Virus record (IMG/VR): IMGVR_UViG_3300026078_000019
Location: 1-64,000 of that record
DNA: 64,000 nt
Direction: 5' to 3' (one strand)
Source of the DNA: a virus
Both the position numbers and the translations under genes were made by a program. The notes beneath the pieces were generated by a model, which saw nothing but the letters and a program-made list of their open reading frames with translations, was not told the origin of the DNA and did not search any database. Of the stretch, positions 8,244-40,032 are shown one piece after another. The stretch's first letter is position 1; each line of letters opens with the position of its first letter.

Positions 8244-8558
8244 ATGCTCTTCATCATCATGGCTGCTGTCCTTCTCGTCGCGCTCGTCGCTCCGAGTTGG
8301 GAGCGGTTCGAAGAGCGCGAGATCGCACATCGTCAGACCTTGTCGGTGTGCGACTCATCAGGCCCCGAAGTTGGGCCGATCGCTGAGTGCGGGGAACGGT
8401 CCAGCGCGCCCCAAGTTATGGCGCTGGCGCATCGATACCACGCGAGGTGGTACACCGGGTCCACAGCCCGCCATACTCGGGCGGGGTTCGGTCCCCGCAA
8501 TCCACGGGGGAGCCAGGAAGGGTTCCCCTGTGGATCCGTGTTTCTGTTCTGGGCCTGA
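8244..8558 (+). CDS. Doubtful membrane-anchored ORF overlapping structured RNA
   Basis: ATG 8244 opens a 104-codon frame whose first 17 residues are hydrophobic (MLFIIMAAVLLVALVAP). The remainder is low-quality: it runs through several strong hairpins (8401-8534) and ends 8 bases inside the tmRNA. The SD is poor. It could be a short membrane protein, but the distal part may be an open frame by chance over structured RNA. Confidence 0.3.
   Translation: MLFIIMAAVLLVALVAPSWERFEEREIAHRQTLSVCDSSGPEVGPIAECGERSSAPQVMALAHRYHARWYTGSTARHTRAGFGPRNPRGSQEGFPCGSVFLFWA
8401..8500 (+). other. Run of strong hairpins upstream of tmRNA
   Basis: Consecutive perfect stems occur: CCAGCGC/GCGCTGG, TACCAC/GTGGTA, GCCCG/CGGGC and GCGGGG/CCCCGC with loop TTCGGT. 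The last looks like a T-arm but its loop is one base short, and no matching acceptor stem is found, so I do not call a tRNA. It may be an unrecognised structured RNA or a 5' leader of the tmRNA precursor. Confidence 0.35.
8502..8534 (+). terminator. 14-bp hairpin just before tmRNA
   Basis: The stem runs from TCCACGGGGG to the complementary CCCCTGTGGA with only GU wobbles as imperfections, and a short A/G loop. The following bases TCCGTGTTTCTGTTCT are moderately T-rich. It could terminate upstream transcription or act as a processing signal 16 bases before the tmRNA 5' end. Confidence 0.4.
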
Positions 8559-8937
8559 CAGGTTTCGACGTGGTTGACGACGACTGTGTTGCGTGCAGGA
8601 GTTGATCGGTGGGCTCCTCTAAAAGCCGATCATCTGTAGCTGCGAACGATTCGAGCTACGCCCAGGCCCGAGCGGCCTGAGCCGTTGGGGTAGGTGGTCC
8701 GATTCGCCTATCCCGACGTCATTCAAGTCGGCACAACCTCTCACAGTGCGATCAGTGTGAGAGGCCGCGGCAGTAGATCTGATCGATGGTGGAGGATTCG
8801 CGGGCAACCGTGCATCCCTCGGAGAGAGCAGGCAACGCAGCTCACGCACTCCGTTATCAAGGCGTAAGAGCGCTGCTACGCACGTAGACGCACAGAAGAA
8901 GCAATCGCGGACCCGGGTTCGATTCCCGGCAGGTCCA
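8551..8937 (+). ncRNA. ssrA: Transfer-messenger RNA (tmRNA)
   Basis: The tmRNA rescues stalled ribosomes by acting as tRNA-Ala and then as mRNA for a degradation tag. The ends pair perfectly: GGGCCTG (8551-8557) with CAGGTCC (8930-8936), including the G3-U70 wobble recognised by alanyl-tRNA synthetase and discriminator A73. The T-arm CCGGG-TTCGATT-CCCGG is canonical. Helix P2 is present: TGCGTGCAG (8590-8598) pairs with CTGCTACGCA (8873-8882) with one bulge. Pseudoknot PK1 is visible (AGGAG/CTCCT interleaved with GATCGG/CCGATC). The tag frame starts at GCG 8642 after GTAGCT and encodes ANDSSYAQARAA, then TGA (8678-8680). CCA is not encoded. Confidence 0.93.
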
Positions 8938-8939
8938 TC

Positions 8940-9116
8940 GGCGCTGAATCAGGTGATGAGGGAACAACATCGAAGGCGAAGATCATCAGGGTCTGAAGAG
9001 TTCATGCCGCACCTCTACTTGCCCGCGGCCACTGATCTCAAAGTTGTAATACCAAAAGCAAACCCCCTGGTGTTCGAGTCCCGGTGCCCTTGGAGGTTCA
9101 AGTCCTCCCAGCGTCT
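8940..9116 (+). ncRNA. tRNA-like RNA of unusual length (about 177 nt)
   Basis: A canonical T-arm (GGAGG-TTCAAGT-CCTCC, 9092-9108) is followed by CAGCGTC (9109-9115), which pairs with GGCGCTG at 8940-8946 through seven pairs with one GU. The 5' strand begins three bases after the tmRNA. The total length is about 100 nt too long for a tRNA and I could not place a standard D-arm or anticodon arm. An internal stem TCAG+TGATGA/TCATCA+CTGA (8949-8996) is also strong. It could be a tRNA with an insertion or a different tRNA-like RNA. Confidence 0.4.
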
Positions 9117-28014: not shown

Positions 28015-28069
28015 GGCGGTACTTCGGTACCGCCTCTTTTCTTTTGCCCTATAAGATCTTGGAGGATCT
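28015..28069 (+). terminator. Terminator followed by CTATAAG promoter-like element
   Basis: Stem GGCGGTAC-TTCG-GTACCGCC (28015-28034) is followed by TCTTTTCTTTTGCC, then CTATAAG (28049-28055), ATCTTGGAGG and the ATG. It is the clearest example of the recurring unit. Confidence 0.88.
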
Positions 28070-28276: not shown

Positions 28277-29418
28277 TGCACTGCGAGAAGCTCTACAAGA
28301 GGACCAGCACCGGCGCGATTCAGGTGTGGTGGCTGGAGCTGGAGACCACCAACGGGCGCTACCGCACCCACAGCGGGCAGAAGGATGGGGCGATCGTAGT
28401 TTCGGAGTGGACGAACGCGAAGGCGAAGAACGTCGGCCGAGCCAACGAAACGACCCCGGGTCAGCAAGCTCTGCTGGAGGTGGAGTCCGGCTACGATCGC
28501 AAGAAGAAGGACGGCTACTCCACGACCGTCGATGCTGCGCAGTCCTCCACCCGGTTCCAGCCCATGCTGGCCAAGGACTACGCCGACTACAAGGCGAAGA
28601 TCAACTTCTCGCCCCAGTTCCCGCATCTGCCCCCGGTGTACGCGCAGCCGAAGCTCGATGGCATCCGCTGCATCGCCGACGCCAAGGGACTGTGGTCGCG
28701 CAAGGGTGACCGCATCGTGAGCTGCCCACACATCGAGAAGGCGCTGGCGCCGTACTTCGCAGCCATCCCTGGTTTGCGCTTCGACGGCGAGCTGTACAAC
28801 CACGAGCTGAAGGACAACTTCAACGAGATCACTTCTCTCGTGAAGACGCTGAAGCCCTCGCCCGAGCATCTGGCCAAGACCGCAGAGATCGTGCAGTACC
28901 ACATGTACGATTCGCCGATGAACGGCGTCGACCTCTTCCACGCTAGGTTCTCGCGGATCTATGACGTGGTGAACGAGGTGGGCAAGCCGCTCGTCATCGT
29001 CCCCACCATGCCGATCTTCGCCGAGAAGGCGCTCGACACCTGGTACGAGGAGTGGCTCGCCATGGGCTACGAGGGCCAGATGGTCAGGATCGACGGCGAG
29101 TACGAGGAGAAGCGGACTAACAAGCTGCTCAAGCGCAAGGAGTTCAAGGACTCCGAGTTCGTGGTGTTGGAGATCTTGGAGGGTGAAGGCAACGCCAGCG
29201 GTGGTGCCAAGGTGGCCTGGCTCCAGCTCGACATCGATCCCACGCGGAAGTTCAAGGCCGACGTCGTGGGGACGAAGGCGGAACGCGTCGCCATCCTCGA
29301 GAACGCCGACAAGCTGATCGGCAAGAAGGCAACGGTGAAGTACTTCGCACAGCGCACGCCGGCCGGGGTCCCTCGGTTCGGCAAGATCAAACTCATTCAC
29401 GAGACCGAGAAGTGGTGA
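28276..29418 (+). CDS. ATP-dependent DNA ligase with N-terminal WGR-like domain (380 aa)
   Basis: Seals nicks using a lysine-AMP intermediate. Motif I QPKLDGIR puts the catalytic Lys at about residue 126; motif III-like RFDGELYN, motif IV YEGQMVR and motif V LLKRKEF follow, and the C-terminus holds an OB-like domain (KADVVGT...KATVKYFAQ). The first 85 residues (LYKRTSTGAIQVWWLELET...NVGRANETTPGQQA) resemble a WGR domain, seen in some phage ligases. ATG 28276 has AAGGAGGG; GTG 28273 is the alternative. Confidence 0.92.
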   Translation: MHCEKLYKRTSTGAIQVWWLELETTNGRYRTHSGQKDGAIVVSEWTNAKAKNVGRANETTPGQQALLEVESGYDRKKKDGYSTTVDAAQSSTRFQPMLAKDYADYKAKINFSPQFPHLPPVYAQPKLDGIRCIADAKGLWSRKGDRIVSCPHIEKALAPYFAAIPGLRFDGELYNHELKDNFNEITSLVKTLKPSPEHLAKTAEIVQYHMYDSPMNGVDLFHARFSRIYDVVNEVGKPLVIVPTMPIFAEKALDTWYEEWLAMGYEGQMVRIDGEYEEKRTNKLLKRKEFKDSEFVVLEILEGEGNASGGAKVAWLQLDIDPTRKFKADVVGTKAERVAILENADKLIGKKATVKYFAQRTPAGVPRFGKIKLIHETEKW

Positions 29419-30002
29419 ACGACGAGTACTACGGCAAGATCCTTCAGAAGTTGGGGGAGTTGGCCAAGAGCTACGGCATCAAGCTCTGCATCGAGCACCA
29501 CTCAGACCCGGACGTCGAACAGAACCAGCCGCAGTTACCCGAAGACTTCACTTGGGGCCCACAGGGTGACGTCGGCTTCAGCACCAAAGCCAGGCTGGTC
29601 TACGCCTACGATCCGATGCCGGAGATACTGCTGCACGAGATCGTGCACTGCATTCTTGGCGAGCCCAGCCGAGTGATCTGTGAAGCCTACCTGCTCATGC
29701 CCTTCGAGCTGGAGCTGGCGAAATGGCTAGTGCGCGGAGAATCCTGGGCTGACTACTTCCTGAAGTGCGTGATCGACTACCAGCTGGTCACGGAGGTCGG
29801 GTATCCGGGTAGTGCTCTCAGGGAGTGGGGCGAGCGGTACATGTTCCTGCGGTTCTGGAGGCGAGGCATCAAGCGCGCGCGGCGCTTGGGCCTGCTGAAT
29901 GGGCGCAACGAGCCAACCTTCGGAAGACCGCGCTGGATCGGAAGTGGAGTGTGCCCGGTGGCCACCTATTGGAACCCGGATGTCGATTCCGAGTACGCAT
30001 GA
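29415..30002 (+). CDS. HExxH putative metalloprotein (195 aa)
   Basis: EILLHEIVHCILGE near residue 74 gives a zinc HExxH, with ICEAYLLMPFELELAKWL following at the spacing of the third ligand in ImmA/IrrE-type proteases. The C-terminus is basic. It overlaps the ligase by 4 bases and is followed by a terminator. Substrate unknown. Confidence 0.75.
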   Translation: MNDEYYGKILQKLGELAKSYGIKLCIEHHSDPDVEQNQPQLPEDFTWGPQGDVGFSTKARLVYAYDPMPEILLHEIVHCILGEPSRVICEAYLLMPFELELAKWLVRGESWADYFLKCVIDYQLVTEVGYPGSALREWGERYMFLRFWRRGIKRARRLGLLNGRNEPTFGRPRWIGSGVCPVATYWNPDVDSEYA

Positions 30003-31056: not shown

Positions 31057-32163
31057 ATGAAGATCATCGAGAACCTGACCGAAGCCCAGCTCATCGCTAC
31101 CTACATCGTGCAGAAGATGGGGAGCGCCACGATCGCCAACATCGTCGAGACGGCGGCGACCGCGCTCGACTGCAACTTCGGACCGAACAACAACCTGCTC
31201 ACGCAGGCGCTGAAGGGCCTGAAGAAGCGCGACATCATCGCGGAGAACCAGCGCCCGGTCGGCGCCAACTCCAAGATGGTGAAGGTCTGGGAGATGAAGA
31301 AGCTGGGGTGGAAGTCCCCGCCGGAGTACGCGCACGTCGGCGATCTGCTGCCCGAGCTGCTTCGCACTGTCGAGCTGGAGGATCTGAAGTCCGGCTTCGA
31401 CAAGAAGGAGAAGCAGGGTGACGAGAAGGCGGGCCGCGGCAACATCATCGACGAGTACCGCAGCTACCTGCTGCGCGTGCGCACGCTGACGCCGCTGCTC
31501 GGCTCGCAGATCCCGAGCGAGATGATGCTCAAGGCCCGCGGCGTCCACGAGAAGGACGAGGACATCACCGGCAACGGTATCTTCGAGCGTGATCTCAACA
31601 CCAAGGAGATCATCATCACGCCGGACGTGCAGCGCGGCTGGTTCCGCACCAACGTGATGCATCCGGCCGGGCTGCCGGCGGCCCGTGCCGACTACGTCGC
31701 GTTCCAGCCCATCCGCATCCCGGCCGACGCCCCGATGGAAGAGGTCGTGCTGCCGGTGCAGAGCGCGAACGGTCCCGCGGCGCCGAAGAAGTACGAGGCG
31801 CTGCTGCCGGGCGTGGAGTTCGAGATCCGGTTCAGCGCGCCGGTCAAGGGCTTCCTCGCCCCCGACCAGCTCGAACGCATGCTGTGGGTGGCGTGCTTGC
31901 AGCCGCGTCGCGGCCTCAGTCCCGCCCGAGGCACCCGCTACGGTACGCTGCTGCCCATCAGCTTCGAGCAGCTCGGCAAGGTGAAGGAGGGCCCCCTCGA
32001 TCACCTGCTCGCCGGTGTGCCGGCGGAGCTTCGACAGCAGTACGCCGGCTACCTCGACAAGACCGTGGCGCGCCTCAGCGGCGTCAAGATCGCGGGTGTC
32101 GTCAACTCGAAGGGCATGGACGACCTCGAAGCGGCGGAAGCTGCCGAGGTCTCCGCGGAGTAG
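31057..32163 (+). CDS. Conserved-type phage protein, wHTH plus large unknown domain (368 aa)
   Basis: Residues 1-80 look like a winged helix (ATYIVQKMGSATIANIVETA...). After a Lys-rich linker, a larger domain starts LLRVRTLTPLLGSQIPSE and has FERDLNTKEIIITPDVQRGW. That L-L-G-x-x-P then F-x-R-D pattern resembles a widespread phage protein family of unknown function that I cannot name. The C-terminus ends in an acidic helix. It is the last gene before the first non-coding pseudoknot cluster. Confidence 0.75.
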   Translation: MKIIENLTEAQLIATYIVQKMGSATIANIVETAATALDCNFGPNNNLLTQALKGLKKRDIIAENQRPVGANSKMVKVWEMKKLGWKSPPEYAHVGDLLPELLRTVELEDLKSGFDKKEKQGDEKAGRGNIIDEYRSYLLRVRTLTPLLGSQIPSEMMLKARGVHEKDEDITGNGIFERDLNTKEIIITPDVQRGWFRTNVMHPAGLPAARADYVAFQPIRIPADAPMEEVVLPVQSANGPAAPKKYEALLPGVEFEIRFSAPVKGFLAPDQLERMLWVACLQPRRGLSPARGTRYGTLLPISFEQLGKVKEGPLDHLLAGVPAELRQQYAGYLDKTVARLSGVKIAGVVNSKGMDDLEAAEAAEVSAE

Positions 32164-32205
32164 GAACGCGATCTTTCGCGAGTAGCCGAGAGAACTCAGG
32201 CTGCG

Positions 32206-32233
32206 CCGGGGCCACCGCGGTGAAGCAGGTGGC
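32206..32233 (+). repeat. Pseudoknot element copy 1
   Basis: Stem 1 is CCG/CGG and stem 2 is GCCACC/GGTGGC (6 bp), interleaved, with loop TGAAGCA. This is the only copy whose loop reads GAAGC. Confidence 0.55.
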
Positions 32234-32246
32234 GCTTCAAGGATGG

Positions 32247-32342
32247 ATGGGACGCCTGAAGGCGGTCGAAGTATCGCTGGTGGCACAGGACGCGGGAACG
32301 TACTACGTCCAACAAGATCGATCCCAGGGATACCGTGGGTAA
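32247..32342 (+). CDS. Possible 31-residue ORF ending inside a pseudoknot loop
   Basis: ATG 32247 follows AAGGATGG and the frame ends at the TAA of copy 2's loop (32340-32342). The product contains KAVEVSLVAQDAGTYYVQQD, which looks like real protein sequence. Three residues before the stop are YRG, and the genes ending at copies 6 and 12 end DRG and RRG. Short and unproven. Confidence 0.35.
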   Translation: MGRLKAVEVSLVAQDAGTYYVQQDRSQGYRG

Positions 32343-32351
32343 GCCGGTGTC
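32323..32351 (+). repeat. Pseudoknot element copy 2
   Basis: Stem 1 is CCCA/TGGG; stem 2 is GATACC/GGTGTC, differing from copy 1 by compensatory changes including a GU pair; loop TAAGCC. Confidence 0.6.
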
Positions 32352-32418
32352 GTCCATTCTCTGGGGGCTAGCGTTGGCGAACAAGAGACGTCGGGCTCGC
32401 TCTTTCAGATCGAAACTT

Positions 32419-32446
32419 CCGGGGCCGCCGCGGGTAAGCAGGCGGC
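32419..32446 (+). repeat. Pseudoknot element copy 3
   Basis: Stem 2 is GCCGCC/GGCGGC, a double compensatory change from copy 1; stem 1 is CCG/CGG; loop GTAAGCA. Confidence 0.6.
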
Positions 32447-32474
32447 ACCACCTCCAGTATCACAGGGCGGCCGG

Positions 32475-32506
32475 CCATATGACTGAACAGCCATATGACT
32501 GAACGA
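32475..32506 (+). repeat. Tandem 16-bp repeat
   Basis: CCATATGACTGAAC occurs twice in direct tandem with a 16-base period. It lies between pseudoknot copy 3 and the terminator. It could be a protein-binding site or a recent slippage duplication. Confidence 0.65.
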
Positions 32507-32579
32507 TTGGGGTATAGAACTTCGGTAGCTACGATAGGTGGTAGGAACGGATCATAGCTCTGCGGAGAGCTGGGTACTA

Positions 32580-32630
32580 AAGATCAACTTTCGGGTTGAT
32601 CTTTTTGTCTATAAGCATGCGGAGGAAGGC
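32580..32630 (+). terminator. Terminator followed by CTATAAG promoter-like element
   Basis: A 9-bp stem AAGATCAAC/GTTGATCTT (32580-32588 with 32595-32603) runs into TTTTTG, then CTATAAG (32609-32615), GCATGCGGAGG and ATG 32631. It ends the 467-base non-coding stretch that holds copies 1-3. Confidence 0.87.
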
Positions 32631-33158
32631 ATGGTCGCGTTGAACACGGTCGCAGGGCGCAACATCATCAAGCTGGCGAGCAAGCACGGGCTGCGGTGGA
32701 TCGAAGGTGAGTGGCCGTACTACGACGAGGAAGAGGACGCCCATACCGCAGATACCGCTGAGCACTTGGCGCACGAGCTGGCGCATCTGCTGGTCGCACC
32801 ACCATCGCGCAAGGAGCTGCCGTACTTCGGTCTCGGTGATCCGCACAGGCTTGGCCAGCATCGCGCCGAGATCTCAGAAAGACTTGTTGATGCAGAGGAG
32901 GAGATCGCGTCTCTGCTCAGCATCGGGCTGGCTCGGCAGAACGGGCTCGGCGTGGAGTCCACGCTCAACATGTTCGACGATCATGGCTGGGCACGCGAGA
33001 GAAGGGACAAGGTGGCGCGTCGTCTGCGCCAGGCCGTGTTCCGCCGCCATCTCACTCCCGAGACCATCGCAGAGCTTCGTCGCATCCAGGCCCGCCTGTA
33101 CGCGGTGGTGAAGAAGAACCGCGGCAGACCACCGTATCGAAGAAGGAGACGATCATGA
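32631..33158 (+). CDS. HExxH putative metalloprotein (175 aa)
   Basis: AEHLAHELAHLLVAP near residue 45 gives HExxH, followed by ISERLVDAEEEIASLLSIGLA where a third ligand Glu could lie. The C-terminus is basic (RGRPPYRRRRRS). ATG 32631 has GCGGAGG. It belongs with the genes at 18286 and 29415 by motif, though the sequences around it are different. Confidence 0.75.
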   Translation: MVALNTVAGRNIIKLASKHGLRWIEGEWPYYDEEEDAHTADTAEHLAHELAHLLVAPPSRKELPYFGLGDPHRLGQHRAEISERLVDAEEEIASLLSIGLARQNGLGVESTLNMFDDHGWARERRDKVARRLRQAVFRRHLTPETIAELRRIQARLYAVVKKNRGRPPYRRRRRS

Positions 33159-34267
33159 ATAAGAAGCGAGTGCAGAAGATCAAGGAACGTACGACGAACA
33201 AGGAGTTCGGGATCAAGAAGACGGTCGCCGACTACGAGCGGGAGATCGAGAAGTTGAAGACGGAGCTTTACGGCGAGCGCCGTAAGGTTCTGGAGCTGGA
33301 GCGAGTTACGGACCGCGTCCGAGAAGTTCTCGATCGCAACAACATCCCACGGGATAAGATCTTGCATCTCGGGGTCGAGGCGCTGTCTGCCCGTATGCGG
33401 GAGGAGGGCTTCAGGCGGATGGAGGCACAGTTCGAGTCACGGACGCGAAAGATGCTCTACGATCTCGGCGTCAGGGTGTGGGCGGAGGCGACGTCACGTC
33501 ATCTTCGTGGCGGCACCTTGGTTGGAGGCGTGGACACCCGATTCGTGAACTACTGCATCGCTGAGATGTTCGGGGAGATCTCGCCTCGCGCGTTGTGGCT
33601 GAGCAAGCTCTTCGTGTCGCTTACCGCCGAAGACCTGACGCTTCTCTCCGAGACCGGCGACATCGAGCTGATGAACAAGCTCGGGCTCAAGCTCGCGGCG
33701 TTCGACAAGTTCCCGGACTTCCCTGATCCCAAGATACCGCCGCCCAAGCCGGAGGAGGGCCGAGATCCTCTTCACGAGGAGTGGGCCCGGCTCGTCTCCA
33801 CTCCGGCAGGATCGAGTGCGGCAATGAGTGCGCTGCTCGCTACTGGCTTCAGTAGCACCGAGCTGTCTCAGATGAATCCGGCACAGCGTCGAAAAGCGTT
33901 CGCAACACATCTTCGGATCGATGAGGTGTGGGACGCCATCTTTGTGAACTGGATCAAGACCCAAGGTGAGGGAAGCGCCTCGGCGATGATCGCTCTTCAC
34001 TGGCTGTTCATCACCACGCATCCGCTCGCTGAGGTGAGAGCCTTCGCCACGGATCAAAGAGCGAAGGAGAAACCGCTTGCGCGTACTGACGTATCGGCGC
34101 ATGAGATCGCGATGGAGATACGTACGCCCCTGGGCGAGACCAAGGTGGCATCCAGGTCTGGTCTGCTGGTGGAAGCCGGTGCCTACGAAAAGGCTCGCCA
34201 GGCTCAGATCTTCCATCCTGAAGGTTCGGGGAAGGCCGCCGATAAGCAGGCCGGAATCCAGATGTAA
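33155..34267 (+). CDS. Coiled-coil N-terminus, unknown function (370 aa)
   Basis: Residues 20-60 form a coiled coil (TVADYEREIEKLKTELYGER...). The rest is helical with no catalytic motif that I recognise; a Pro-rich linker PDPKIPPPKPEE lies near 195. Pseudoknot copy 15 sits inside the last codons. Overlaps the previous gene by 4 bases. Confidence 0.75.
   Translation: MNKKRVQKIKERTTNKEFGIKKTVADYEREIEKLKTELYGERRKVLELERVTDRVREVLDRNNIPRDKILHLGVEALSARMREEGFRRMEAQFESRTRKMLYDLGVRVWAEATSRHLRGGTLVGGVDTRFVNYCIAEMFGEISPRALWLSKLFVSLTAEDLTLLSETGDIELMNKLGLKLAAFDKFPDFPDPKIPPPKPEEGRDPLHEEWARLVSTPAGSSAAMSALLATGFSSTELSQMNPAQRRKAFATHLRIDEVWDAIFVNWIKTQGEGSASAMIALHWLFITTHPLAEVRAFATDQRAKEKPLARTDVSAHEIAMEIRTPLGETKVASRSGLLVEAGAYEKARQAQIFHPEGSGKAADKQAGIQM
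34226..34252 (+). repeat. Pseudoknot element copy 15, inside coding sequence
   Basis: Stem 1 is TCGG/CCGA and stem 2 is GGCC/GGCC; loop TAAGCA. It ends 12 bases before the TAA stop of the gene at 33155. It is the only copy wholly within a CDS. Confidence 0.5.
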
Positions 34268-34306
34268 CGTTTGAGGGTATGTGGGACGGATGAGAAGTCG
34301 GTCCGG

Positions 34307-34358
34307 GGAGAGGCATCGCGCCTCTCCTTTTGCCTATAAGATCTAGAGGAGAGATGCC
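34307..34358 (+). terminator. Terminator followed by CTATAAG promoter-like element
   Basis: Stem GGAGAGGC-ATCGC-GCCTCTCC (34307-34327) is followed by TTTTGC and CTATAAG (34334-34340), ATCTAGAGGAGAG and the ATG. Confidence 0.87.
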
Positions 34359-34982
34359 ATGACTCAGATCGTAAATCCCATCACCGAAGACAAGAGCGTC
34401 GGCTTCGACGAGCGCGGCCAGCTTCTGCACGAGAAGCAGGAGGGCTACTACATCTCCACCCACCACATCAGTGACGTGCGAGGCAAGACCTGCGCGTTGT
34501 GCGGTCGCGGCTGGGAGCTGAATGGTCCTGCCTTCAGCGATCAGCGCTACGTGCAGACGCAGGAGAAGTGGGTGCACGAGACCTGCCTGATGAGGAATCG
34601 GGCGTGGGACGAGTTCTACTCCGTGCAGGGAGCGTTCTCTGCTGCGCGCATGCCGCACTACGGGCTGAAGGAGATCCCGAACCAGTACTGGAGGAACGAT
34701 CGGCTGTACTCTATGATTCCGTGGTACTCGATCGCGCCGAAAGAGAAGGCGGGCCTCGGCATCATGTTTGTGGTGGGCCACCGCAAGAACGTGTGGAGCA
34801 TCGAGGTGATGGCGGAGTCCGGTCTCGCCGTCATCCCGGAGCGCCTGAGCAAGGCGTTCGAGAACGAGGACGTGACGAAGGAGTTCGGTCCGGCCAAGGG
34901 GCTCATCCACGCATGGGGAGATCAGAAGATGAAGGACTACATCAAGGTGATGGTCGACGTCCTCGGACTGGCGAGGCCGTGA
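34359..34982 (+). CDS. Zinc-binding hypothetical protein (207 aa)
   Basis: CALCGRGW near residue 45 and HETC near residue 74 make a possible Cys3-His zinc site. The remainder has aromatic-rich segments (QYWRNDRLYSMIPWYSIAP). The start is ATG 34359; ATG 34353 is out of frame. Function unknown. Confidence 0.75.
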   Translation: MTQIVNPITEDKSVGFDERGQLLHEKQEGYYISTHHISDVRGKTCALCGRGWELNGPAFSDQRYVQTQEKWVHETCLMRNRAWDEFYSVQGAFSAARMPHYGLKEIPNQYWRNDRLYSMIPWYSIAPKEKAGLGIMFVVGHRKNVWSIEVMAESGLAVIPERLSKAFENEDVTKEFGPAKGLIHAWGDQKMKDYIKVMVDVLGLARP

Positions 34983-35488
34983 TGAAGTGGTGGCTGGTGA
35001 AGCCGGAGAACGCTCGCGAAGGCCGGCGCTGCGTCTCTCCGATGTGGATCAGCGACGAGGCCCTGGCCATCAAGGAGCCTCGATGGCGCGAAGACCCCGA
35101 CCTGGAGCCATGGGCAAAGCAGGAGATCAGCAGTGTGGCGCTGGATGGCGGAGGCGTGATGCGCATCGGTGCGCACCGCTTCTCGACCCCGTTCTTCGAC
35201 TCCACGCTCTACATCTTCGCGACGCAGGTCGAGGGCTTCATCGACACGCTGCGCGACATCGAGTCGAGGCCTAGTGGTCTCTACAACGTCGTATGCTGGC
35301 CCTGCCTACTGGTCCTGACGAAGGAGCAGGTGCTGTTCGCAGAGCGCTGGCTCCACACCATCGCAGCCGAAGCCGCGGCGATCGCTGAAGTGGAGAACGA
35401 GGACTTCAATCGAACCTTCATTCACAACCCGAAGCCGCACGTGATGCTCACGCCGCGCCCAGTGCGCGGCAAGATCGAGGAGGCGTGA
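34982..35488 (+). CDS. Hypothetical protein (168 aa)
   Basis: ATG overlaps the previous TGA. Mixed alpha/beta with Trp-rich start (MKWWLVKPEN) and a helical middle. Not recognised. Confidence 0.72.
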   Translation: MKWWLVKPENAREGRRCVSPMWISDEALAIKEPRWREDPDLEPWAKQEISSVALDGGGVMRIGAHRFSTPFFDSTLYIFATQVEGFIDTLRDIESRPSGLYNVVCWPCLLVLTKEQVLFAERWLHTIAAEAAAIAEVENEDFNRTFIHNPKPHVMLTPRPVRGKIEEA

Positions 35489-35802
35489 TGCCGTACAGAG
35501 AGAGCGAGAAACCACTCGAAGTTGAAGAGAAGGCTGAGCGCGGAATCACCGCCGGCATGATCGTGTGCGCTGCGCTGTGTGCGATCTCCGGCTTGCTTTC
35601 CCTGACAGCCTTCGCCTTGTGGTGGAGTACCGGGGCGCCGCGTGTTGGTATTCCGATCGGCTTGGCGTGCAACTCAGTCACGTTCGCCGTGTTGTACAGA
35701 ACGCTGAGCCTCAACGCGAGTACCGCCCGGCGCATCAAAGAGGCGGAGAAGATCATGAGCCGTCAGTCGGCCGAGATCCAGGAGCGAGGAAGGGGACTAT
35801 GA
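35488..35802 (+). CDS. Two-pass membrane protein (104 aa)
   Basis: Two hydrophobic helices (MIVCAALCAISGLLSLTAFAL and GIPIGLACNSVTFAVL) with polar ends; the C-terminal tail is charged (TARRIKEAEKIM). The first helix is flanked by acidic residues. Role unknown; too acidic for a typical holin. Confidence 0.72.
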   Translation: MPYRESEKPLEVEEKAERGITAGMIVCAALCAISGLLSLTAFALWWSTGAPRVGIPIGLACNSVTFAVLYRTLSLNASTARRIKEAEKIMSRQSAEIQERGRGL

Positions 35803-36377
35803 CGAAGCGTGAGGTGGAACTGCTGCGCATGGCGTTGCTCGGTGGCCCGCTGGGCGGGCCCTTTGGGCGCGACTACGACAAGCTGCCCGACTTCGCCAGA
35901 GATCATATCGACGGTACGATCGAGGGCATTGTGGAGCAGTACGAGGCGAAGCATGGCAAGCCCGTGGTCGTCACCACCACGATCGGCAATCGTCTCAAGG
36001 CCGCGGTCGAGCTGTCGGCGAAGCTCTTCGAGGCGCTCAGTCGTACGCGCGGCATGCTGTACAGCATCAGGTACGGCGTCGGTGGTGTGTCGGAGATCCA
36101 TCCCGCCATCGACAACGTGCTCAAGGCTACGGCGGGCGACTACGAGATCGCGGGCAATCCCGTTGATGTCATGATGCGACGCTTCGGCTTCGATCAGATC
36201 TATGACATCAAGAAAGGCGTATTGACCTGGGTGGCCCTCCCCGCAGATGAGGGTGCGCGCTACGAGACGTTGCGCGTGAAGGCGCAGCTCGAACCGCTCA
36301 GCGCGGAGGAGGCGGCGGAGCTTCGTCATCTGGCGGAGCGACGCGTGGGTGACTCTGATCTCGACGACGGATGTTAG
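35799..36377 (+). CDS. Hypothetical protein (192 aa)
   Basis: ATG 35799 overlaps the previous gene by 4 bases. Contains a Gly-rich stretch LLGGPLGGPFGRDYD and otherwise mixed structure. Not recognised. Confidence 0.72.
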   Translation: MTKREVELLRMALLGGPLGGPFGRDYDKLPDFARDHIDGTIEGIVEQYEAKHGKPVVVTTTIGNRLKAAVELSAKLFEALSRTRGMLYSIRYGVGGVSEIHPAIDNVLKATAGDYEIAGNPVDVMMRRFGFDQIYDIKKGVLTWVALPADEGARYETLRVKAQLEPLSAEEAAELRHLAERRVGDSDLDDGC

Positions 36378-36385
36378 GAGGCGAC

Positions 36386-36892
36386 ATGCTCATCGTGGTG
36401 ACAAAGGCTCAGATCATCGACGCGCTGGAGAACGAACCCATCGAGCAGTTGCGGCCCGGGGCGTGGTTCGGCACGGCGCAGTTCCCGTCGCAGTTGCCCT
36501 TCTGCGCACGGTGTGCAGTGGGTTCGGTGCTCAGCACCTTGGTGCAGTACGAAGAGGTTCGGACTGCGGCACGTCAGCTCGTTCGAACGGACGACACCTG
36601 TCCTGACTTCCCGCTCTCCTCTCTTGCAGAGCTGGAAGTTGCGGCGATCAAGCTGATCGAGAAATCGCCGATGGCAGCACTGAGCTACTTCTTCGAGGGC
36701 GCCTGTACGTGGCACAGCGGTGAAGAGGTGTCCGACTACATGCTGCCGGCAGACGTCGAGCTGGCGCGCCGCGACACCGTCAAGTTCGTGCAGCAGAGGT
36801 TCCCCGATTCCATGCTGCTCGATATCGTCGGCGTGCATCCGCGCGAAGGCGTGGAGACGCGATCGTACCCGGATACCTCGCCGGCAAGCTGA
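36386..36892 (+). CDS. Hypothetical protein (168 aa)
   Basis: ATG 36386 has a strong SD (TTAGGAGGCGAC). Contains a C-x-x-C near residue 38 (FCARCAVG) and another single Cys. Followed by the second non-coding cluster. Confidence 0.75.
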   Translation: MLIVVTKAQIIDALENEPIEQLRPGAWFGTAQFPSQLPFCARCAVGSVLSTLVQYEEVRTAARQLVRTDDTCPDFPLSSLAELEVAAIKLIEKSPMAALSYFFEGACTWHSGEEVSDYMLPADVELARRDTVKFVQQRFPDSMLLDIVGVHPREGVETRSYPDTSPAS

Positions 36893-36979
36893 GGACGGCG
36901 GACAGTTGCAACGACTGATGCCCCGTTAGTTAGTCGGACAGGAATCAAGTAGCTATGTCGGGTGTCCCGATCTGAAGCT

Positions 36980-37008
36980 CCTGGGGCCACCGCAGGTAAG
37001 CAGGTGGC
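36980..37008 (+). repeat. Pseudoknot element copy 4
   Basis: Stem 1 is CCTG/CAGG and stem 2 is GCCACC/GGTGGC; loop TAAGCA. The stem-1 change (CCCA to CCTG with TGGG to CAGG) is compensatory. Confidence 0.65.
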
Positions 37009-37147
37009 GCTCTAGCGGAGGGGTGAAGTTGGGGAGGACGGCTGGTTCCTAGGGATTGCAGGAACGATCACAGGAATGAATGGAGAGACGAAGCAGCGCT
37101 TGGCGGTACTGCTGTAGCTGATGATCTGAGGAACAGGCTCGATCTAT

Positions 37148-37176
37148 CCGGGGACCACCGCTGGCAAGCAGGTGGT
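37148..37176 (+). repeat. Pseudoknot element copy 5
   Basis: Stem 1 is CCGG/CTGG with one GU pair; stem 2 is ACCACC/GGTGGT; loop CAAGCA, so no UAA here. Confidence 0.6.
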
Positions 37177-37262
37177 GATCTAAGGAAGTGTTGGCTGATG
37201 AAATAGCTGGACGAATGAAGGATTCGAGTATTTCGTCGGTTGTACGAAGTCCAGTACGGACG

Positions 37263-37309
37263 AAGGAAGGACAGCCTTCCTTTTTGCCTATAAGATCTTG
37301 GAGGAACAC
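37263..37309 (+). terminator. Terminator followed by CTATAAG promoter-like element
   Basis: Stem AAGGAAGG-ACAG-CCTTCCTT (37263-37282) is followed by TTTGC, then CTATAAG (37288-37294), ATCTTGGAGG and ATG 37310. It ends the 417-base non-coding stretch with copies 4 and 5. Confidence 0.87.
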
Positions 37310-37921
37310 ATGGGTGAATGGCAAGATCGAACCGTCGACGAAGTAGAGGGCACGATCGAGAAGGCTCAGGAAGAGCTTCGCGAGAAACGGGCCGCCGACA
37401 TCAACGAACTCAGCTTCGCCGTCAACGAGGTGAAGCTGGCGAGCGAGACGCTCGACAACGCGCGCAAGAGCATCCAGCACCGACTGCGCGAGTACTGGCT
37501 GGAGGGGGCGATGAGCCCGCACGCGTCTCGACGCGCGGAGGTCACCGCGGCGCTGCGGATGTGTGGGCTGAAGCCTCCTCAGTACATGGCGTGGACGGGA
37601 GAGGAGCGTGCGATGTGGCTCGCAGATCGGTTGGTGGCGCCAACACAGCCCAACCCCATCGCGGTGCAGACGCCCAAGCTCATGCTACTCATCACCGACC
37701 GTAGGGCGGACCAGGACCTTCTGATCTTCGAGGTCGGCGACATCGTCATCACTGCGGGTCGTACGCTCGAAGGTCACGTCACGCTCGACGTGCAGCGGGA
37801 CAACGGTGAGGACGAGGACTGCGACAACCTCCTCAGCTTCAGCATGGCGCCCGACGCGCAGCCGAAGAGCGACGCCGGACGTATGTACGACGTCGAGATC
37901 AACCCGGACGACCGCGGGTAA
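37310..37921 (+). CDS. Coiled-coil hypothetical protein ending in a pseudoknot (203 aa)
   Basis: The N-terminal 70 residues form a helical coiled coil (VDEVEGTIEKAQEELREKRA). The C-terminal half contains LLIFEVGDIVITAGRTLEGH and ends NPDDRG. Its TAA stop is the first base triplet of the loop of pseudoknot copy 6, so termination and the RNA structure coincide. Function unknown. Confidence 0.75.
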   Translation: MGEWQDRTVDEVEGTIEKAQEELREKRAADINELSFAVNEVKLASETLDNARKSIQHRLREYWLEGAMSPHASRRAEVTAALRMCGLKPPQYMAWTGEERAMWLADRLVAPTQPNPIAVQTPKLMLLITDRRADQDLLIFEVGDIVITAGRTLEGHVTLDVQRDNGEDEDCDNLLSFSMAPDAQPKSDAGRMYDVEINPDDRG

Positions 37922-37930
37922 GCAGGCGTT
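37903..37930 (+). repeat. Pseudoknot element copy 6, overlapping a stop codon
   Basis: Stem 1 is CCCG/CGGG; stem 2 pairs GACG(A)CC with GGCGTT with one bulged A; loop TAAGCA. The loop's TAA is the stop of the gene at 37310. Confidence 0.6.
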
Positions 37931-38023
37931 GGACCTTCTGTTTGGTGATTCGAGAGAATGAACAGGCGGTGGATGCGAAGGAAGACGGCAGTGGTCTGAG
38001 CACGCCCGCCAGTCATTGCGATC

Positions 38024-38052
38024 TCGGGGCCCACCTCCGATAAGACGGTGGG
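38024..38052 (+). repeat. Pseudoknot element copy 7
   Basis: Stem 1 is TCGG/CCGA and stem 2 is CCCACC/GGTGGG; loop TAAGAC. Both stems differ from the other copies yet stay paired, which is strong covariation. The loop TAA also ends a 32-codon frame from GTG 37945. Confidence 0.65.
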
Positions 38053-38096
38053 ATCGAGTATGTTCTGAGATCAGGACGTAGTACGTAGAAGGTGTT

Positions 38097-38291
38097 GTGC
38101 TGAAAGTACGGGTACAGGTTGTCACGGAAGACGGAACGGGGACCTGGCTGTGGGAAGGAAAGTTTTTCAGATCATCCCGGATACGCGCGGGTAAGCGGCG
38201 AGATCGACCGTTCGCACACTTGGACGGGCGGCGAGTGGAAGTGGATGGCGTGAGAAGATGGGTGGGCGTGGAGGTCCGCGCTCTGTGTTGA
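38097..38291 (+). CDS. Doubtful small ORF in the non-coding cluster
   Basis: GTG 38097 opens 64 codons (MLKVRVQVVTEDGTGTWLWE...), but there is no clear SD and pseudoknot copy 8 lies in its middle. The second half is Arg/Val rich. I regard it as likely chance, though the first 20 residues look protein-like. Confidence 0.25.
   Translation: MLKVRVQVVTEDGTGTWLWEGKFFRSSRIRAGKRRDRPFAHLDGRRVEVDGVRRWVGVEVRALC
38176..38200 (+). repeat. Pseudoknot element copy 8 (degenerate)
   Basis: Stem 1 CCCG/CGGG is intact, but stem 2 is reduced to about 3 bp (CGC/GCG); loop TAAGCG. Confidence 0.45.
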
Positions 38292-38292
38292 T

Positions 38293-38320
38293 CCGGGTGC
38301 GCCGCCGGTAAGCTGGCGCG
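38293..38320 (+). repeat. Pseudoknot element copy 9
   Basis: Stem 1 is CCGG/CCGG and stem 2 TGCGCC/GGCGCG (with one GU), different from the other copies but paired; loop TAAGCT. Confidence 0.65.
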
Positions 38321-38392
38321 GTTCGGTCAGGGATGAACGAGGGGTCGGCAACCAGGCGGAAGGTACGGACGCTCGGACTTTCGCGCGTCGCT

Positions 38393-38420
38393 CCGGGACC
38401 ACCGCGGCTAAGCAGGTGGG
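38393..38420 (+). repeat. Pseudoknot element copy 10
   Basis: Stem 1 is CCG/CGG and stem 2 is CCACC/GGTGG; loop CTAAGCA. Confidence 0.6.
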
Positions 38421-38557
38421 TACCGCAGTAACGATGATCTTGGTGGCTGGCGGTAGGAAGACACGCAAGTGCGAAGGCACGTTCGACTGCGTCGCGAGTG
38501 GTGGGGATAGGGGGTCTTGAAGTCGGGAGAATGTGCGATCGGTGATACCGCCGATGA

Positions 38558-38586
38558 CCCAGGACCACCGTGGGCAAGCCGGTGGT
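38558..38586 (+). repeat. Pseudoknot element copy 11
   Basis: Stem 1 is CCCA/TGGG and stem 2 is ACCACC/GGTGGT; loop CAAGCC. Confidence 0.65.
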
Positions 38587-38664
38587 ATCGACGAGAGATG
38601 GAGGGTAGAAAGGCGCGTCTGCTTCGTGTGATCGCTGGAGGGTGAGGGCATCCGCTTGGCATCT

Positions 38665-38715
38665 AGAACACGCTTTGGCGTGTTCTTTTTGCCCTATAAG
38701 ATCTTGGAGGTAGAG
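38665..38715 (+). terminator. Terminator followed by CTATAAG promoter-like element
   Basis: Stem AGAACACGC/GCGTGTTCT (38665-38673 with 38678-38686) is followed by TTTTTGCC and CTATAAG (38694-38700), ATCTTGGAGG and the ATG. It ends the 794-base non-coding stretch with copies 7-11, the longest in the window. Confidence 0.88.
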
Positions 38716-39354
38716 ATGTTTCGACTGTATCGGAGGGAAGACGGCACCATCCACACCCTGGGGTGGATCACCGATGCGACGAAAGCGGTGGTGGAAGAGG
38801 CGAAGCGCACCGGCAACACCGAGGTCTTGGTGTTCAACGACGTTCGCATCGAGATCACGGCGAGTAGTGATCCGGTGGAGCGCGCGAACTACTACTACGC
38901 GGCGCACGAGGAGAGATGCCGCATCGCGGAGGAGAAGAAGAGCCGCGCCACGATGCTGGACTGGGAGAAGAAGCATGCCGATGGTCTTGCGCTGCTCGTC
39001 GAGCGCCTGGCGCTGAGCGAAGAGCAGGCGATGTGGCTGGCGGAGGAGATTCGGGATGCGTTCGAGGGCGCGACCGAAATCAACGAGGGGATGTACCGAC
39101 TGATGCGGCTCAGCGCGGAGATCGATCCGCCGAGAAGCAAGGGAGGTCGGGGACGCAGGGTCAACGCCGCGATGGTGAAGGCCGAGCTGTGGGGTGATCC
39201 CGAGAAGCTGTACGAGAAGGTGCACGCCCTGCGCGCCGAGGCCGACACCTTCGTCGCGAAGCTTCGCGCCGAGGCCGCAGAGATGTGGGGAGTCGATCAC
39301 TGCGCCGACCTCGACTTCTTGCTCGAACGCGTGAAGCCGGGGAGCACGAAGTGA
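38716..39354 (+). CDS. Hypothetical helical protein (212 aa)
   Basis: Starts with a strand (MFRLYRREDGTIHTLGWITD) and continues as long charged helices. No motif recognised. Overlaps the next start by 4 bases. Confidence 0.75.
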   Translation: MFRLYRREDGTIHTLGWITDATKAVVEEAKRTGNTEVLVFNDVRIEITASSDPVERANYYYAAHEERCRIAEEKKSRATMLDWEKKHADGLALLVERLALSEEQAMWLAEEIRDAFEGATEINEGMYRLMRLSAEIDPPRSKGGRGRRVNAAMVKAELWGDPEKLYEKVHALRAEADTFVAKLRAEAAEMWGVDHCADLDFLLERVKPGSTK

Positions 39355-39662
39355 ACGAGGTGAGGTGCATCTGCGAGGAGTGCGGCGGGAACCTGGCCCG
39401 TGATGTGTACGGGGATCAGCACGAGTTCGTGGCTGGTGCTGAGATGGAAGGTGTCTACGCTCACGACCTCTGCGCGCACTGCGGCAAGTCGCACGAAGAT
39501 GCGGCGCACTTCGACGATACCGGGCATGAGGTGCGCGACATCAACAACATCATCGATCGGATGGATTCGCGCGGTGACGTCAGGCCAGCCATCGACCTCA
39601 CGATGTGTCCGCACGGCCCGCATCGTGTGAGACCGAAGATGCTCCCGGAACGCCGCGGGTAA
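39351..39662 (+). CDS. Zinc-binding protein ending in a pseudoknot (103 aa)
   Basis: GTG 39351 gives VNEVRCICEECGGN and later CAHCGKSHEDAAHF, two Cys/His clusters of a zinc ribbon. Its stop TAA lies in the loop of pseudoknot copy 12. The last residues are PERRG. Confidence 0.75.
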   Translation: MNEVRCICEECGGNLARDVYGDQHEFVAGAEMEGVYAHDLCAHCGKSHEDAAHFDDTGHEVRDINNIIDRMDSRGDVRPAIDLTMCPHGPHRVRPKMLPERRG

Positions 39663-39671
39663 GCCGGCGCT
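39644..39671 (+). repeat. Pseudoknot element copy 12, overlapping a stop codon
   Basis: Stem 1 is CCCG/CGGG; stem 2 is AACGCC/GGCGCT with one mismatch; loop TAAGCC. The TAA is the stop of the gene at 39351. Confidence 0.6.
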
Positions 39672-39753
39672 GTGTGATGAACGGAAAGGGCCGACGACGG
39701 AAGTCTACGTGAGAAGGTCGGGCCTCCTGGCAGGGGACGAGACCTGCATCGAT

Positions 39754-39781
39754 CCGGGACCACCGCGGAAAAGCTGGTGGT
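39754..39781 (+). repeat. Pseudoknot element copy 13
   Basis: Stem 1 is CCG/CGG and stem 2 is ACCACC/GGTGGT; loop AAAAGCT. Confidence 0.6.
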
Positions 39782-39862
39782 GTTGTTGAGATGTAAGTCT
39801 CGCGCGGATGCGCCGCGAGCTTTGTTGCGCGCAGCATGGGAGGGATCAGCTTGGCGCAGTAA

Positions 39863-39890
39863 CCCAGGACCACCGTGGGTAAGCAGGTGG
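39863..39890 (+). repeat. Pseudoknot element copy 14
   Basis: Stem 1 is CCCA/TGGG and stem 2 is CCACC/GGTGG; loop TAAGCA. It is the last copy. About 140 bases without a recognised feature follow before the promoter at 40033. Confidence 0.65.
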
Positions 39891-40032
39891 GTCTCAAGCT
39901 AACGCGCCGGGCCTAGGCCGAGCATGGAAGCGATGACGAACGAGAGTTGTAGGGTTGGAGACGATCGCGGGATGGAATGTGCGTCGTACCGATCTCAGAG
40001 ACTGGGGCTTCTCCCCATCTCTTTGCCCGCTG

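Follow-up and report, generated by a model that had tools for sequence, protein, structure and literature searches.

Covarying H-type pseudoknots at the 3' termini of five successive transcription units of a large uncultured phage, a possible multicopy binding platform for a protein

Results

A family of compact pseudoknots whose stems covary

The window analysed here, 64,000 nucleotides (nt) that form part of the 149,872-base IMG/VR virus record IMGVR_UViG_3300026078_000019 (positions 1 to 64,000), carries between 32.2 and 39.9 kb a dispersed family of 15 small elements, with a probable 16th, that are predicted to fold as compact H-type pseudoknots in RNA and that five transcription units in a row carry at their 3' ends. 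We tentatively favour the reading that these arrays act as a multicopy platform on which a protein that recognises their shape is bound and titrated, and put it forward as possible rather than probable. The record encodes a DNA polymerase, a DnaB-like helicase, a UvsX-like recombinase, a terminase, a DNA ligase and a RecD/Dda-like helicase; its replication, recombination and terminase genes, together with a transfer-messenger RNA (tmRNA), therefore indicate a large tailed phage.

All 15 copies listed in an initial annotation of the window are present in the sequence and on the plus strand, and only four registers had to be moved by one base, to true stem 1 starts of 32205, 32418, 38392 and 39753. 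The consensus N4-GG-N3RCC-G-N4-YAAGCN-GGYN3 describes a stem 1 (S1) of 4 base pairs (bp), a loop 1 (L1) of G or GG, a stem 2 (S2) of 4-6 bp, a loop 2 (L2) of G and a loop 3 (L3) of YAAGCN; the 3' strands of the stems are called S1' and S2'. Ten distinct sequence pairs make up S1 across the 15 copies (CCCA/TGGG, CCTG/CAGG, TCGG/CCGA and TCCG/CGGA among them), and S2, at up to 6 bp, occurs as 11 (among them GCCACC/GGTGGC, GATACC/GGTGTC and CCCACC/GGTGGG). The third loop, initially described as usually TAAGCA, has that sequence in 6 of the 15 copies, its invariant part being AAG. A pattern scan of the whole 149,872-bp record gave 12 forward, no reverse and no control matches, all within 32.2-39.9 kb.

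A covariance model built from the 15 copies, as the initial annotation had proposed, recovers all of them at E<=5.4e-4. The next-ranked site in the whole record, at 36868-36900, has E 0.8 (E 0.34 when the window alone was searched). The element within it, at 36869-36894, has perfect 4-bp stems, the L2 G and an L3 of CAAGCT, and it overlaps the stop codon of its unit's last coding sequence (CDS), as do copies 37903 and 39644; it is a probable 16th copy, graded no higher because its L1 is ATA.

Covariation against shuffled alignments had been named beforehand as a test of the pseudoknot. In the unedited MAFFT alignment 89.0% of the pair cells were standard, compared with 71.3 ± 2.0% after shuffling, two-sided changes occurred in 8 of the 10 pairs, and on none of five measures was the observed value reached by any of 500 shuffles. 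When the registers were slid on this alignment, pairing fell to 32-53%. With registers set by hand, 59 of 60 S1 cells and 80 of 90 S2 cells were paired (maxima of 20,000 shuffles, 55 and 76, respectively), and slid controls attained at most 33 of 60 and 51 of 90. All copies are paralogues within one virus, so that the covariation is one between copies and not between species and the significance obtained by shuffling is somewhat overstated; the slid controls, however, preserve this relatedness and yet clearly fail. This pattern of substitution shows that both stems are maintained by compensatory change and indicates that the copies fold independently as 28-29-nt H-type pseudoknots, as had been claimed.

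Also, the L2 G and the fifth L3 nucleotide (C) can pair, and this junction pair is probably real because copy 38024 has altered both partners together (to T and A). With it, the element would probably consist of S1, the junction pair beside an invariant G, the two L3 A residues facing S1 and, ahead of S2', a bulged base. The loop nucleotides are invariant while the stem sequences vary, and therefore it is the shape and not the stem sequence that is conserved.

Other origins of the pattern were considered and rejected. Chance is at odds with the pattern scan, the shuffles and the slid registers. A simple hairpin with nested pairing (S2 extended by two inner pairs, the minimum free energy structure when pseudoknots are disallowed) would leave the covariation of S1 unexplained, and its inner L2:L3 pair is compatible with the pseudoknot as the junction pair. 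A larger conserved unit is not supported either, since the flanks are near background (no position above 0.9 bit and nearly all below 0.6), from which we conclude that the selected unit is the 28-29-nt fold. Upstream of the element there is a weak excess of GATC (7 of 15 copies, compared with 2.1; P=0.0015), a post hoc observation on a motif that is frequent across the window. The whole window contains 759 GATC sites, or 11.9 per kb, where about 250 would be expected at equal base frequencies.

Arrays between stop codon and terminator

The four long non-coding stretches in which the copies had been placed were confirmed, and a short fifth unit with a single copy was added. The five units, beginning at 30.0, 32.6, 34.3, 37.3 and 38.7 kb (B to F in Table 1; gene starts in the window are our own choices), end with 3, 1, 3, 6 and 3 copies, the 16th included, located between the stop codon of the last gene and a strong terminator. 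The first copy starts from 41 nt before to 42 nt after the last base of that stop codon, and the last copy precedes the terminator by 79-161 nt, start to start. Intervals from copy to copy are 95-168 nt (mean 124, standard deviation 26), a spacing more even than random placement would give (P=0.0004 for the minimum, P=0.0002 for the standard deviation). Copies and linkers occupy about 2 kb of non-coding DNA; the units ending at 28.0 and 30.0 kb lack copies and have next to no 3' untranslated region (3'UTR).

The linkers, of 66-139 nt, are unique and mutually unrelated, and protein-coding content was rejected on the grounds of stops in every frame and a negative codon score. An RNA sponge for CsrA/RsmA was likewise discarded, linker GGA numbering 55 compared with 50.8 ± 5.3 in shuffles and so showing no excess. 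Elsewhere in the virus we found no convincing linker match, only matches of 11-16 nt (best 15 nt, E 0.007), and the idea that linkers are targets or copies of other viral sequence was therefore dropped. It could still be imagined that each 95-168-nt RNA has the pseudoknot as its handle and a unique part that serves as a guide or antisense small RNA, as a constant structured repeat with a unique non-coding linker at regular spacing would suggest; the lack of convincing matches, the non-identity of the repeats and a search for TnpB/Cas12-type effectors that gave no protein above cut-off make this very improbable. Mimicry of CRISPR repeats, one of the initial suggestions, did not hold up, as the stems vary from copy to copy, and a CRISPR array, which has near-identical repeats and spacers of 30-40 nt, was excluded by 10 S1 types in 15 copies, by linkers of 66-139 nt and by the absence of any cas model match among the ten neighbouring genes scanned. 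In the tail of the first array, between the last pseudoknot and the terminator, the direct repeat CCATATGACTGAAC occurs twice in succession at about 32473-32506.

Six modules of the order terminator, CTATAAGATCTTGGAGG, gene delimit transcription units between 28 and 39 kb. The promoter-like and ribosome-binding-site module that follows the array of unit B (Table 1) has sister sites on the plus strand at 34327, 37281 and 38687, and also at 28042 and 30028, where no pseudoknots precede it; these 6 matches compare with 0.04 expected, and there is none elsewhere in the 150-kb record. The six sites (28042, 30028, 32602, 34327, 37281 and 38687; plus strand) join the terminator tail to GCCTATAAGATCTTGGAGG. 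We infer that the modules are promoters, possibly of a phage-specific late type.

Since a strong intrinsic terminator and then a gene stand behind every array, the elements might control transcription in cis, as nascent-RNA antiterminators or as regulators of read-through at the terminator and promoter module. The put elements of phage HK022 show that nascent structured RNA can act as an antiterminator (PMC9378689), and they too are structured elements of phage RNA in a region rich in terminators. However, put, which suppresses termination by binding RNA polymerase, is a two-hairpin element of about 70 nt, present in two copies near promoters, whereas the arrays place up to six copies immediately ahead of the terminator, and copies are missing from two units that share this terminator module. 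We judge cis control to be quite improbable.

The main rival to protein titration is protection of 3' ends, in which the pseudoknots would be roadblocks to 3'-5' exonucleases, to 5'-3' decay or to Rho and would stabilise the upstream messenger RNAs (mRNAs). In each of the five units the copies occupy the stretch from stop codon to terminator, their tiling leaves no fold-free untranslated stretch longer than about 140 nt, and the conserved loops are explicable by the fold alone. The non-coding array regions are G-rich and C-poor (35-39% G, 20-25% C), a composition unfavourable for Rho, which we count among the points for this explanation. On the other hand, comparable units at 28.0 and 30.0 kb manage without copies, 330-740 nt of extra untranslated RNA would be a costly safeguard for a message, one or two copies should suffice where unit E has six, and S2 is weak in two copies. 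On balance, protection of 3' ends appears rather unlikely.

Table 1. Pseudoknot copies, 3' ends and promoter-like module in the window. Sequences are divided in the order S1, L1, S2, L2, S1', L3, S2'.
Feature	Position	Strand	Remarks
Copy 1, unit B	32205..32233	+	GCCG-GG-GCCACC-G-CGGT-GAAGCA-GGTGGC; 36.1 bits
Copy 2, unit B	32323..32351	+	CCCA-GG-GATACC-G-TGGG-TAAGCC-GGTGTC
Copy 3, unit B	32418..32446	+	TCCG-GG-GCCGCC-G-CGGG-TAAGCA-GGCGGC; 45.2 bits, best
Copy 4, unit C, within end of last CDS	34226..34254	+	TCGG-GG-AAGGCC-G-CCGA-TAAGCA-GGCCGG; S2 4 bp
Probable extra copy, unit D, on stop codon of CDS 36386-36892	36869..36894	+	CCGG-ATA-CCTC-G-CCGG-CAAGCT-GAGG; 15.5 bits, weak in itself; position and perfect stems support it
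Copy 5, unit D	36980..37008	+	
Copy 6, unit D	37148..37176	+	
Copy 7, unit E	37903..37930	+	S2 poorly paired; L3 TAA is the stop codon of CDS 37310-37921
Copy 8, unit E	38024..38052	+	L2 G to T with L3 C to A; junction pair kept
Copy 9, unit E	38176..38203	+	S2 poor
Copy 10, unit E	38293..38320	+	
Copy 11, unit E	38392..38420	+	One S1 mismatch
Copy 12, unit E	38558..38586	+	
Copy 13, unit F	39644..39671	+	L3 TAA is the stop codon of CDS 39351-39662
Copy 14, unit F	39753..39781	+	
Copy 15, unit F	39863..39891	+	
3'UTR array, unit B	32164..32606	+	Non-coding by codon score; terminator hairpin 32579-32604, -11.7 kcal/mol, z -4.6
3' end, unit C	34268..34332	+	Terminator about 34305-34329, -17.5 kcal/mol
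3'UTR array, unit D	36893..37285	+	Non-coding by codon score; terminator 37262-37283
3'UTR array, unit E	37922..38691	+	Non-coding by codon score; terminator 38665-38686
3'UTR array, unit F	39663..40024	+	Non-coding by codon score; terminator 39997-40022
Promoter-like and ribosome-binding-site module, after unit B array	32602..32625	+	TTTTTGYCTATAAG...GGAGG; conserved in six sites

Relatives and comparison with ToxI

The initial claim that the family matches nothing known was borne out in Rfam, where no relevant match to the element was obtained even at E<=10. Comparing the region at nucleotide level with about 50,000 phage records gave no match, and in two pattern scans of IMG/VR multiple copies occurred only in a second record of 172 kb, which showed 100% identity in a comparison of 21,140 bases and which we take to be the same virus; other matches were single, and several of these resemble coding sequence when read by eye. 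Homologous copies in related phages, to which the initial annotation had looked for support, were not found in phage contigs that share the ligase. Among the matches listed in a scan of bacterial genomes there were scattered single sites shaped by the query pattern and no family. A lone covariance-model match in a Myxococcus genome was set aside, that genome having been picked for such a match, and no evidence for a Myxococcota host was found. As far as can be judged from these comparisons, the family is without counterpart in Rfam, in sequenced phages, in IMG/VR or among the bacterial-genome matches listed.

In architecture the elements resemble ToxI, the RNA antitoxin of type III systems. 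In ToxI of E. coli, a four-pair S1 is stabilised by A-minor contacts of A19 and A20, G5 in L1 makes the turn, and G21 contacts a U12-U22 pair (PMC8860590). We confirmed the repeat of Pectobacterium ToxI in plasmid NC_011767 as AGGU-GAUU-UGC-U-ACCU-UUAAGU-GCA. Shared by both are the H-type fold, a 4-bp S1, an L1 starting with a conserved G, A-A-G in L3, a pair between the base before S1' and the base after the L3 G (U:U in ToxI, G:C or U:A here), and several copies followed by a terminator. All nucleotides of the ToxI core (L1 G, L3 AAG, junction pair and 4-bp S1) are present, in a comparison made with the published description (PMC8860590) and not with a solved structure; this likeness is a match of architecture and may reflect convergence. 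The phage elements differ from ToxI in being GC-rich and in having an S2 of 4-6 bp with a bulged base before S2'. They cannot be assigned to the ToxI family because ToxI consists of tandem 34-36-nt repeats with conserved single-stranded overhangs, whereas the phage elements are interspersed at 95-168 nt with unrelated linkers and have neither such overhangs nor A-rich cut sites.

The initial suggestion that the copies are decoys for a type III toxin therefore stood as to the loop nucleotides, which coincide with the ToxI core, and failed as to tandem arrangement and overhangs. If they were true type III antitoxin decoys, they would neutralise a host toxin of the ToxN family, for which phage RNA mimics of ToxI provide a precedent (PMC3475682); the common topology and core nucleotides, and terminators behind the arrays as in toxIN loci, are consistent with this. 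However, ToxN binding needs the overhangs and the ToxI core alone does not bind ToxN (PMC8860590), which counts against a direct ToxN decoy, as do the interspersed copies, the unconserved flanks, the longer S2 with its extra bulged base and the absence of any Rfam match. Such decoys are improbable, in our judgement. The pseudo-ToxI of phage PhiTE is likewise a set of phage-borne pseudoknot RNA repeats outside coding regions, but its repeats are direct tandem ones nearly identical to ToxI, whereas here 15-16 diversified copies with unique linkers have no identified model RNA.

Two further phage RNAs bear some likeness to the elements. The gene 32 mRNA of phages T4 and T2 contains a small H-type pseudoknot that is bound by protein; it is, however, a translational operator in a single copy in the 5' leader, in contrast to many copies in 3'UTRs. 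RNA anti-CRISPRs (Racr) are small phage RNAs as well, and the present elements could similarly act as decoys, but Racrs copy CRISPR repeats, whereas these correspond to no repeat and vary among themselves.

Neighbouring genes and other features

The proteins encoded beside the arrays gave no informative family match and no toxin family, with the exception of a holin-like protein (35485-35802) that matches at the Pfam cut-off. A small CxxC-rich protein (39351-39662) has a weak match, below cut-off, to an MqsA-family antitoxin model (E 0.008). Two orphan proteins without family match, at 29412-30002 and 32631-33158, contain HExxH motifs (HEIVH and HELAH, respectively) and are possible small zinc peptidases. 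Directly upstream of the first array, the C-terminal half of the orphan protein 31057-32163 looks RAMP-like by eye (LTPLLGS..., GLSPARGTRYGTLLP); this Cas6/Cas7-type identity is unproven, as Pfam, NCBIfam, PADLOC, PHROGs and PDB gave no match, and an AlphaFold2 model made without an alignment (predicted confidence, pLDDT, 35) does not support it.

The only Rfam match at gathering threshold was the tmRNA at 8551-8940, with the predicted tag ANDSSYAQARAA; no similar phage tmRNA was found by blastn in the phage collection. On either side of it, T-arm-like stretches lie at about 8484-8500, 9070-9090 and 9093-9112 (GGTTCGGTCCCC, GTTCGAGTCCCGG and GGTTCAAGTCCTCCC, respectively), where ARAGORN called no tRNA; possibly they are degenerate or unusual tRNA genes.

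Discussion

Under the favoured reading of protein titration, each unit would be transcribed from its CTATAAG module, and its untranslated 3' end would be an RNA with 1-6 copies of one rigid shape. That shape would be a ToxI-type core, with a 4-bp S1 whose shallow groove holds the two A residues of L3, a G stacking on the junction pair and a sharp turn of L1 at G. Together the copies would titrate a shape-recognising protein, most likely one of the host that binds RNA or is of RNase type and serves in defence or regulation. With linkers that are unique and stems that have diversified, dosage would be gained without recombination removing copies, and even spacing would leave room for a bulky partner on every copy.

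Dosage and conservation of shape are what suggest titration: numerous copies that share a strand recur at regular distance at 3' ends, separated by unique linkers. The phage spends about 2 kb on 15-16 copies where comparable units do almost without a 3'UTR, the copies occur nowhere else in the record, both stems covary, and the core of the element coincides with nucleotides of the ToxI tertiary core. Several points weigh against it. No partner protein is known, and as the searches found no relative, no host can be named. A search of the record with PF13958 (ToxN-like) gave no match, in a run whose control also matched nothing. The flanks are unconserved, whereas ToxN does not bind core pseudoknots that lack overhangs (PMC8860590), and S2 pairs poorly in copies 37903 and 38176. 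Folding by itself, with no protein involved, could account for the conserved loops, and the ToxI-like core may be convergent, few loop solutions fitting a 4-bp S1.

A more specific proposal, which we regard as doubtful though conceivable, is that of a new class of phage non-coding RNA in which operon 3'UTRs are built as evenly spaced beads of ToxI-core pseudoknots. These would form a high-dosage decoy for a host protein, an undescribed defence RNase or regulator that recognises pseudoknots, and diversification of stems and linkers would let the array withstand recombination. To our knowledge, very few cases of RNA-based counter-defence in phages exist (pseudo-ToxI and Racr).

If protein titration is correct, few phage RNA devices described so far would be as elaborate as 15-16 covarying pseudoknots distributed across five 3'UTRs, and a host factor that reads pseudoknot shape would be implied. 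Even if their role were protection of mRNA, the arrays would be an unusual instance of tiled pseudoknots in phage 3'UTRs. The copies would offer a natural set of variants from which to learn which nucleotides make a minimal 29-nt pseudoknot.

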